This document shows positions 12,928 through 14,900 of a stretch of DNA of 64,000 nucleotides, piece after piece. How positions within the stretch are numbered: the first letter of the stretch is position 1; every line of letters starts with the position of its first letter. The notes beneath the pieces are model-generated. The model made no database searches. It saw only the letters and a list, made by a program, of their open reading frames with translations, and was not told the origin of the DNA. The stretch comes from Pandoraea pnomenusa (GTDB taxonomy: Bacteria; Pseudomonadota; Gammaproteobacteria; Burkholderiales; Burkholderiaceae), in contig NZ_CP009553.3 of NCBI RefSeq assembly GCF_000767615.3, positions 4,526,001 through 4,590,000 of the forward strand. Direction: 5' to 3'. Both the position numbers and the translations under genes were made by a program.

Positions 12928-13356
12928 TTAGATCTCGAGCGACTTCGGTTGCTGCGCTTCGTGCGGATGATTGCCGTCGGCGTACACCTTCAGCTTCTTG
13001 ATCATCGCATAGCCCAGCGGACCCTTCGGCAGCATGCCCTTCACGGCCTTCTCGAGCGCACGGCCCGGGAAACGCTCTTGCATCTTGCCGAACGTGGTTT
13101 CGTAAATACCGCCCGGGTAACCCGAGTGACGGTAGTACTTCTTGTCAGTTTGCTTCGCGCCCGTAACTTTCAGCTTGGCAGCATTGACGATGATGATGTA
13201 GTCACCAGTATCAACGTGCGGCGTAAATTCAGGTTTGTGCTTGCCGCGCAGACGGCGTGCCACTTCGCTGGCGACACGGCCGAGGACTTTGTCCGTCGCG
13301 TCAATCACAAACCATTCGCGCGTCACCTCTGCCGGCTTAGCGGAAAACGTCTTCAT
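12928..13356 (-). CDS. rplM: Ribosomal protein L13
   Basis: L13 is an early-assembly large-subunit protein. The 142-residue length is exactly typical. Visible signatures are [39 protein letters not shown] and [17 protein letters not shown]. It is first in the rplM-rpsI operon, with a good promoter 150 bases upstream and a leader that opens with a hairpin (13475-13503). Confidence 0.98.
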
Positions 13357-13508: not shown

Positions 13509-13538
13509 ATTATACAGAAAAATCCACTCCCCGGTAAA
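13509..13538 (-). promoter_or_regulatory. Promoter of the rplM-rpsI operon
   Basis: On the minus strand TTTACC (13533-13538), an 18-base spacer and a perfect TATAAT (13509-13514). Transcription would start near 13503, giving a leader of about 147 bases. The terminator of the small RNA lies just upstream, so it insulates this promoter. Confidence 0.65.
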
Positions 13539-13554: not shown

Positions 13555-13654
13555 ACAAAAAAAAACCCGAACCTCAATGGGTCCGGGTTAAATCCACCAA
13601 AGGAGGAGGGTGGAGGAGACACTTGCAGGATTGCTGTGAAGCACAACAACCAAT
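13555..13654 (-). ncRNA. Candidate small RNA with an anti-Shine-Dalgarno hairpin loop
   Basis: A self-contained ~100-base transcript on the minus strand. It has its own promoter (TTGCGT, 17 bases, TACACT) with a purine start at 13654. A 5' hairpin is built on TTGTTGTG/CACAGCAA. A central hairpin (13593-13614) pairs TCCACC with GGTGGA around the 10-base loop CTCCTCCTTT. A terminator stem (13564-13589) is followed by a run of T. The loop matches the anti-SD end of 16S rRNA (CCTCCTTT), so it could base-pair with ribosome-binding sites. A betaproteobacterial toxic small RNA family with an anti-SD loop has been described, as I recall, and this may be a member. No protein frame is credible here. 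Confidence 0.78.
13557..13589 (-). terminator. Rho-independent terminator of the small RNA
   Basis: AACCCGGACC pairs with GGTTCGGGTT around the 6-base loop CATTGA, giving a 10-bp stem, followed on the minus strand by at least nine T. No protein gene precedes it on that strand, which is what first suggested an RNA gene. Confidence 0.9.
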
Positions 13655-13660
13655 GACTGA

Positions 13661-13689
13661 AGTGTAGCAAAGGCGATGGTGCAACGCAA
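13661..13689 (-). promoter_or_regulatory. Promoter of the candidate small RNA
   Basis: On the minus strand TTGCGT (13684-13689) and TACACT (13661-13666) are separated by exactly 17 bases. Start is predicted at the A opposite 13654. Confidence 0.7.
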
Positions 13690-13993
13690 GAAAATTTATA
13701 GTGCGAAATCAAACACCATAATGTGAAAAGAGAGGCACGGCCGAAGGATTACATAATTTCCATTAAAATCAATTATTTACACCAATTCTCGCCTTTCACC
13801 TCACCGTCCTGCGTAGCACCAAGCTTCTAAATTTAGGGTTTATCCCCCTGAAAAGCCGATCAAAAAAGCGCCAATATTGCGACGCAGCATCCCGGGACGC
13901 GAAGGTTGGCATTTCAGGGGCGCGAGCGGCGTCGTACGCGCGTCGGCGGAAGCCGCTACAATTTTCAGCTTGAATGAGATATCGGGGTTTCGA

Positions 13994-14419
13994 ATGATGG
14001 AATGCAAGGTGAGCTGGATGGGCCAGGACGGCATGGCCTTTGTTGCGCAGACGGGCAGCGGGCACATTGTCGCGATGGACGGCGCACCGGAGGGCGGCGG
14101 CCACAATCTTGCGGCGCGCCCGATGGAGATGCTGCTCGTGGGCACCGGGGGATGCACCGCGTATGACGTGGTTCTGATCCTGAAGAAGAGTCGTGCCGAA
14201 GTGAAGGGTTGCAGCGTCACGCTCAAGGCCGAGCGCGCCAGCGAAGATCCGAAGGTGTTCACCAAGATTCACTTCCACTTCACGGTAACCGGCCGCAATC
14301 TGAATCCGGCAACGGTGGAGCGTGCCGTGACGCTCTCGCACGACAAGTATTGCTCGGCGTCGATCATGCTGGCCAAGACGGCGGAGCTCACGCACAGCGT
14401 CGAGATCGTCGAAGGCTGA
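13994..14419 (+). CDS. OsmC family protein (YhfA-like)
   Basis: The 141-residue protein belongs to the OsmC/Ohr superfamily, whose characterised members are thiol peroxidases for organic hydroperoxides. Both family cysteines are present: Cys54 in GTGGCTAYD and a second near residue 117 in HDKYCSASIML. The arrangement is closest to the YhfA branch, whose physiological role is unclear. I start at one of two adjacent ATGs (13994/13997); an open frame back to 13877 has no family resemblance. A TACAAT hexamer at 13957-13962 may be the -10. A hairpin terminator follows the stop. Confidence 0.88.
   Translation: MMECKVSWMGQDGMAFVAQTGSGHIVAMDGAPEGGGHNLAARPMEMLLVGTGGCTAYDVVLILKKSRAEVKGCSVTLKAERASEDPKVFTKIHFHFTVTGRNLNPATVERAVTLSHDKYCSASIMLAKTAELTHSVEIVEG

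Positions 14420-14489: not shown

Positions 14490-14900
<411 letters not shown>

Follow-up and report, generated by a model that had tools for sequence, protein, structure and literature searches.

Between rplM, which encodes ribosomal protein L13, and a divergent osmC-like gene, the window (the whole stretch of 64,000 nucleotides of Pandoraea pnomenusa DNA that was analysed) contains a small RNA (sRNA) gene. All parts of the sRNA lie on the minus strand, the first-pass annotation of this DNA having given no strand. The features of the locus are as follows.

13994..14419, plus: osmC-like gene, divergent neighbour (PF02566)
13684..13689, minus: -35-like element TTGCGT, 17-nt spacing to the -10
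13677..13689, minus: candidate PhaR/PhbF operator TTGCGTTGCACCA, overlapping the -35 (motif matches)
13661..13669, minus: extended -10, TGC-TACACT, conserved in 26 Pandoraea-genus copies
13557..13655, minus: sRNA transcript of about 99 nt (RF02278 match; probable start, by homology to the 92-nt ncS27)
13629..13651, minus: 5′ hairpin of the precursor (fold)
13557..13621, minus: conserved double-hairpin core (RF02278 positions 1-64), which probably corresponds to the short forms that ncS27 and S17 are processed to
13612..13619, minus: site 1, UCUCCUCC, complementary to GGAGGAGA (fold; kept in all rplM-adjacent copies)
13593..13614, minus: hairpin 1 (fold, conserved pairing)
13599..13608, minus: site 2, the anti-Shine-Dalgarno (anti-SD) loop CUCCUCCUUU of hairpin 1
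13557..13589, minus: hairpin 2, intrinsic terminator with T-run (stem 13589-13564; compensatory changes in relatives)
13509..13538, minus: separate candidate rplM promoter TTTACC-18-TATAAT, 3′ of the terminator (consensus scan only)
12928..13356, minus: rplM, downstream neighbour (PF00572)

A search against RNA families gave a full-length match to RF02278 ("Betaproteobacteria toxic small RNA") at 13621-13557, with 69.2 bits (gathering threshold 50) and an E-value of 7e-12, and this is the betaproteobacterial toxic sRNA family that the first-pass annotation had likened it to. The match covers model positions 1-64, and both hairpins and both CU-rich sites are common to the window RNA and the model; the core is without differences, while the 5′ precursor hairpin falls outside the model. 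The fold has a z-score of -5.3, a value that also counts an outer helix outside the RNA, as the folded stretch began 9 nt 5′ of the presumed start, and none of 200 shuffled sequences was equally stable. Together, the E-value and the fold indicate that the match is not due to chance. Hairpin 1 consists of six pairs, UCCACC/GGUGGA, closing the loop CUCCUCCUUU, and in the fold the UCUCC of site 1 (13619-13615) is unpaired, with its last UCC (13614-13612) inside stem 1. The loop holds CCUCCUUU; the string GGATCACCTCCTTTCT, which we take to be the 3′ end of 16S rRNA, is present four times in this genome and its reversed string not once, so the loop copies the anti-SD of this genome. The earlier proposal of an sRNA with an anti-SD loop beside rplM was therefore borne out.

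The other parts that had been proposed, i.e., a promoter with 17-base spacing, a 5′ hairpin, a terminator, and an RNA of about 100 bases, were likewise found: TTGCGT and TGC-TACACT are separated by a 17-nt spacer, and the hairpin and terminator lie at 13651-13629 and 13589-13557, respectively. A sigma-70 scan requiring 9 of 12 matches did not list the sRNA promoter, which has 7 of 12 by our own count; on the other hand, TTGC, GCA, and TA.A[CA]T are invariant in the 26 Pandoraea-genus rplM copies, which supports a promoter. The distance from the CATTGG start to the last T of the terminator is exactly 92 nt in a Burkholderia relative (L027) and 99 nt in the window, pointing to position 13655 as the probable start of the sRNA.

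In this genome (5.39 Mb, one contig), RF02278 has three copies that pass the cut-off, plus one scoring 38.6 bits. The sRNA occurs in 31 of 32 Pandoraea-genus genomes, the exception being the 1.2-Mb genome G018. This reduced genome of the same genus is also without phaR. Among the best 80 rplM loci, five of which have less than 270 nt upstream of rplM, 32 have an RF02278 match upstream of rplM at the Rfam cut-off, and four further loci (L064, L075, L085, and L096) have a relative of the sRNA below the cut-off, found via the string CTCCTCC; these four are included in the 36 rplM-adjacent copies considered below. Each of the 26 Pandoraea-genus copies that were checked is followed by rplM and accompanied by a divergent osmC-like string; this set comprises 26 of 27 loci, with L123, another paralogue type, omitted, as were L100-L102 (other type).

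Several other observations were made on the family and its surroundings. An RNase P RNA gene is located at 14490-14899 on the minus strand (RF00010, 292 bits), and several relatives likewise have one close to osmC and the sRNA. In a Noviherbaspirillum genome (G048), 16 RF02278 matches were present among the matches listed (45 of 46 records searched, L064 omitted), and two Janthinobacterium genomes (G059:C44:22027-30708 and G060:C1:4138297-4168509) contain loose RF02278 clusters whose neighbours, among the matches listed, lie 0.7-20 kb apart. What looks like a distinct subfamily is formed by the weak RF02278 matches of L330, L347, L359, and L364 (families f43, f49, and f27), whose TTTCTCCTCTATTTCTCCTTTGTAGA cores are near-identical. 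In Cupriavidus lacunae (L023:4675-4825), a group II intron domain (RF02012) occurs downstream of rplM.

The first-pass annotation had placed its emphasis on the loop. The loop does copy the anti-SD, but the most conserved part of the RNA is its 5′ site: among the 36 rplM-adjacent copies, UCUCCUCC is found in 36, the loop CCUCC in 27, and the 16S 8-mer of the loop in 16. In four rplM-adjacent copies of Polynucleobacter (L073, L077, L083, and L085), the loop motif is lost and UCUCCUCC is kept. The Polynucleobacter rplM copies also retain GUCUCCUCC, and each of three genomes searched has a single RF02278 match. With regard to structure, the stem pairings, whose conservation in relatives had been named as a test, are preserved, since 146 of 167 sequences fold into stem 1 (at least four pairs in the minimum free energy fold), one position showing compensatory pairs (C-G in 73, U-A in 63), and the CUCC of site 1 is fully unpaired in 149 of the 167 folds. 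These stem 1 counts were taken from single folds, the MAFFT alignment, which had misplaced stem 1, being set aside; RNAalifold on that alignment found the terminator alone. The terminator hairpin also shows compensatory changes among relatives.

The genome contains 16 instances of GGAGGAGA-N3-9-ATG and none of the reversed pattern, a control that leaves general Shine-Dalgarno enrichment in. Two of the 16 candidate target frames are short (21 and 82 aa), and the other 14 exceed 100 aa. Among the latter, five encode transport proteins (two MFS proteins, two ABC-type binding proteins, and one ABC permease) and seven metabolic enzymes (biotin carboxylase, amidohydrolase, acyl-CoA dehydrogenase, Nuo51-type flavoprotein, class III CoA-transferase, oxalyl-CoA decarboxylase, and alpha/beta hydrolase), the remaining two being murE and SpoVR; the ATG in SpoVR is probably internal, because the match starts at profile position 95. 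The targets described for related RNAs are of the same broad kind (PMC5688073, PMC11722255).

The -35 region of the sRNA promoter resembles the binding sites of PhaR, a repressor that senses granules of polyhydroxybutyrate (PHB) and leaves its DNA sites for them. Two motifs have been published for this regulator, the MEME-derived TG[N]TGC[N]3GCAA of Herbaspirillum seropedicae PhbF (PhaR), which lies inside a DNase I footprint (PMC3206438), and YTKNTGCRNYGCANMAR of Ralstonia eutropha PhaR, for which predicted phaP3 sites were confirmed by EMSA and up to three mismatches were accepted by the authors (PMC12849132). The segment TTGCGTTGCACCA has no mismatch to the reverse complement of the former and two mismatches to the latter. 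With at most one mismatch and within 130 nt, the H. seropedicae motif was found in 30 of the 36 rplM-adjacent promoters (2000 scrambled motifs: mean 0.64, maximum 12), L021 being scored as a miss solely because its site is more than 130 nt away; the R. eutropha motif was found in 27 of the same 36. In 25 of the 30 hits (offsets 21-26 tried), the operator TTGC begins 23 nt ahead of the best -10 hexamer; for two of the 30 (L046 and L075), no good -10 lies at the usual distance. Within the operator, TTGC, GCA, and the final A show no variation across the 26 Pandoraea-genus copies, none of which was dropped by the anchoring string TCTTGC...GCA. The three middle bases vary there as G/A, then T/A/C, then C/T, i.e., R-N-Y, and the R. 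eutropha motif, TGC-RNY-GCA, has RNY at the same positions.

Within the genome, phaR is present (PF07879, E-value 1.9e-31), and the phasin promoter has two such palindromes, with no mismatch to the R. eutropha motif. In L219, the phasin start (1483) is preceded at about 134 and 189 nt by two TTGTGC-N3-GCACAA palindromes, a pair like the two PhaR sites described for R. eutropha phaP1. The promoter of the genome's own phaR has no operator site, and among phaR promoters overall a site was found in 12 of 27 loci scored (3 of 30 could not be oriented). Of the genome's other sRNA copies, paralogue L002 matches the H. seropedicae motif without mismatch in the opposite orientation, and paralogues L003 and L004 have no site. 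In Burkholderia, the H. seropedicae motif is exact in L369 and L371, with one mismatch in L370 and two in L373 and L252; no site was found at the promoters of the rplM copies L024 and L027 (Burkholderia) and L372 (same family), where the hits of the R. eutropha motif, which at two mismatches also accepts palindromic hairpins, correspond to the 5′ hairpin. Because that motif has 20 matches at two mismatches in the 64-kb window, a match near any single gene is weak by itself. Binding of PhaR to the sRNA promoter is what the motif matches suggest.

Among 299 sampled genomes of the order, phaR (PF07879) was detected in 202 and the sRNA (E-value 1e-5) in 155, with 119 over the Rfam cut-off; 38 of the 299 have the sRNA without phaR. 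The operator was scored in two sets of sRNA promoters. The first set comprised one copy from each of 51 genomes with phaR, hand-picked among the matches listed with the better-scoring G289, G184, G364, G334, G197, and G251 passed over, and 29 copies from 23 genomes without phaR; the second contained 38 copies from 35 genomes with phaR (hand-picked) and 15 copies from the other 15 without it. Together, the sets cover 86 of the 117 genomes having both phaR and the sRNA and all 38 of those having the sRNA alone (lists compared by eye).

With the H. seropedicae motif (at most one mismatch), a site was found in 42 of 51 copies from phaR-containing genomes versus 1 of 29 from phaR-less genomes in the first set (means for scrambled motifs 1.4 and 0.6). 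A prediction for this motif, written before the second set, of more than 50% with phaR and less than 10% without it was missed (18/38 versus 3/15, p 0.06). The R. eutropha motif at up to two mismatches, applied after the missed prediction though published independently, was found in 39/51 versus 1/29 in the first set (scrambled means 1.4 and 0.6) and in 32/38 versus 1/15 in the second (1.4 and 0.4); at three mismatches the counts were 48/51 versus 3/29 and 34/38 versus 4/15, with scrambled means of 11.3, 5.6, 9.1, and 3.2, respectively. When the TGC/GCA core was kept exact with at most two other mismatches, they were 31/51 versus 1/29 and 19/38 versus 0/15. As a sole motif, TGNTGCNNNGCAA was rejected as too narrow in view of its counts in the second set (18/38 and 3/15). 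Joined searches for TGNTGCNNNGCAA (at most one mismatch) or TGCNNNGCACAA (exact) gave a site in 71 of 89 copies with phaR versus 4 of 44 without it, and a site in at least half of the copies in 16 of 21 phaR-containing versus none of 11 phaR-less family groups. Both sets were separated by the trial motifs TGCNNNGCACAA and TGCNNNGCAMMA; TTGTGCNNNGCACAA separated neither, and TTGCNNNGCAC did not separate the second at zero mismatches.

Individual genomes follow this pattern to different degrees. In a pair from the same genus, G225, with phaR, has an exact site and G320, without phaR, has none. By either motif at the limits used, no site was found in G200 and G345 (g14), in which phaR is present, and G316 and G338 (f42) have phaR and yet carry the palindrome found in phaR-less genomes (see below); of three f42 copies with phaR, two are without a site and the third has a distal match only. 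The phaR-less genomes probably fall into few clades and so probably represent few independent losses, and the counts above ignore kinship. In place of the operator, 39 of 44 phaR-less copies contain TTAGANAATNCTNA (at most one mismatch), compared with 3 of 89 from genomes with phaR, a palindrome read off the same sequences in which it was counted, without a scrambled control. In phaR-less copies (L220-L248 and L316-L330), a palindrome like TATTAGATAATTCTAATA lies over the sRNA -10.

These comparisons bear on a reading in which the sRNA is an ordinary RF02278 member and TTGC-N3-GCA either belongs to the core promoter or is bound by another regulator, which we regard as unlikely. It would account for TTGC standing at the -35 position with 17-nt spacing, and phaR-less genomes may lack other PHB-linked regulators too. 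However, the GCA-N-M-A half extends past the -35, the middle operator bases keep R-N-Y, some families have (by eye) a TGC-N3-GCACAA site with a separate -35-like element downstream of it, and genomes without phaR seldom carry the TTGC-N3-GCA element.

Two further explanations were considered. That the RNA is a general translation poison, its loop mimicking the 16S anti-SD and blocking most ribosome sites, draws on the 16S 8-mer contained in the loop and on the naming of RF02278 members for inhibiting the growth of E. coli (cited in PMC5688073), and is very improbable, given that the 8-mer is kept in less than half of the rplM copies versus site 1 in every one; the loop was for this reason rejected as the main element. 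With regard to the toxicity that the first-pass annotation expected of an abundant RNA, overexpression of ncS27 slows the growth of B. cenocepacia (PMC5688073); growth was only modestly impaired on stationary-phase entry according to PMC11722255. An attenuator-like rplM-rpsI leader that tunes ribosomal protein synthesis through terminator read-through is more improbable still, although the position upstream of rplM is conserved in the 32 loci mentioned above: a separate candidate promoter for rplM follows the terminator, the sRNA has copies unlinked to rplM (three over the cut-off in this genome and, among the matches listed, 16 in one other), and in B. aenigmatica a candidate ORF on the opposite strand separates the two genes. 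The leader was rejected on account of that promoter and the unlinked copies. As for the "toxic" label itself, it reportedly stems from cloning in E. coli (Kimelman, 2012, as cited by others).

The preferred reading, to which we assign a probability of roughly 0.7, is that an RF02278 sRNA orthologous to ncS27 is repressed by PhaR, released by PHB, and blocks the ribosome sites of transport and catabolic mRNAs. Repression of phaP1 by PhaR was reported to act through sites close to the -35 and -10, with PhaR sequestered to nascent granules once PHA is made; R. eutropha PhaR can activate as well (PMC12849132). By analogy with phaP1, PhaR bound to the TTGC-N3-GCA operator at the -35 would keep the sRNA off, and when PHB accumulates, i.e., with excess carbon and limited growth, PhaR would move to the granules and the sRNA would be made. 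The sRNA would probably then be cut to the short form, and its 5′ UCUCCUCC, aided by the loop, would pair with mRNAs for transport and catabolism at their Shine-Dalgarno regions; further uptake would thus drop as the carbon store fills. Counting against the involvement of PhaR are the Burkholderia rplM copies without a promoter site, although ncS27 is induced in B. cenocepacia, the missed prediction, the paralogues L003 and L004, the f42 copies, and the ability of PhaR to activate. More broadly, in betaproteobacteria that make PHB, RF02278 may well serve as the RNA arm of the PhaR regulon, and stored PHB, sensed by PhaR, would lead the sRNAs to stop uptake and catabolism; phaR-less lineages would drive the same sRNA through the other -10 palindrome (TATTAGA-N4-TCTAATA-like), with the input rewired and the output kept. 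We consider this wider proposal probable.

With regard to novelty, the RNA itself is, judging from its RF02278 membership and orthology to ncS27, already known, and the element that looks new is the PhaR-type operator at the sRNA promoter, together with the regulatory link that it implies. In searches of the open-access literature, no paper linking RF02278 RNAs with PhaR was listed; Kimelman 2012 and Sass 2019, outside that scope, may hold such a link. The accessible parts of PMC5688073, PMC11722255, and PMC4603805 contain no mention of PhaR, PHB, or phasin, and those of PMC11332829 mention sRNA in a reference only. If the proposal is true, a widespread betaproteobacterial sRNA family would be tied to carbon storage by a named regulator, which could explain the appearance of these sRNAs when carbon is plentiful and growth is limited, and would be relevant to Cupriavidus, Herbaspirillum, and other bioplastic producers. 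The swap of promoter elements in phaR-less lineages would then represent regulatory rewiring around a conserved sRNA.

By synteny and predicted length, the window RNA is the Pandoraea orthologue of B. cenocepacia ncS27. The latter is 92 nt long (PMC4603805, PMC5688073) and is located between BCAL3348a and BCAL3349 on the strand opposite to both (PMC4603805). The B. aenigmatica locus (L027) comprises, in this order, rnpB, osmC-like ORF, sRNA, small candidate ORF (opposite strand), and rplM, and the neighbourhood and orientation of the window and L027 agree with the ncS27 table (PMC4603805, table 3); BCAL3349 presumably corresponds to osmC and BCAL3348a to the small ORF. The RNA of B. cenocepacia J2315 and that of the window share neighbours and strand pattern (via L027 and the published table), the start motif, and a similar length (92 versus a predicted 99 nt or so), whereas the PhaR-like promoter site of the Pandoraea copy is missing from L024 and L027, and the small ORF is a feature of L027. 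It was also reported that ncS27 is processed to a short form, that ncS03, ncS05, and ncS27 are up in glucose medium, starvation, and biofilm, and that an upstream motif is common to three of the four double-hairpin RNAs of Sass et al. (PMC5688073). This motif may be the PhaR site, and if the proposal is true, PhaR is a candidate regulator of these double-hairpin RNAs.

In Bordetella pertussis, S17/S17S has a related 5′ site and hairpins, and its long precursor is cut to a form of about 67 nt; it differs from the window RNA in its locus and its 190-nt precursor, and repression in vivo was postulated by the authors for its promoter (PMC11722255), for which PhaR would, if the proposal holds, be a candidate. 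Operator matches stand upstream of the core at a distance of 117 nt in Achromobacter L144, of 177-180 nt in Bordetella sp. L146 (one and two mismatches by the two motifs), and of 111-135 nt in 7 of 7 phaR-containing genomes of family f4. To our knowledge, the RNA of MmgR from Sinorhizobium meliloti is unrelated to the RF02278 RNA. The mmgR system is similar in that an sRNA gene with a conserved promoter dyad is under negative control by AniA (PhaR), with positive control by NtrC (PMC8401924). MmgR acts on phasin mRNAs.
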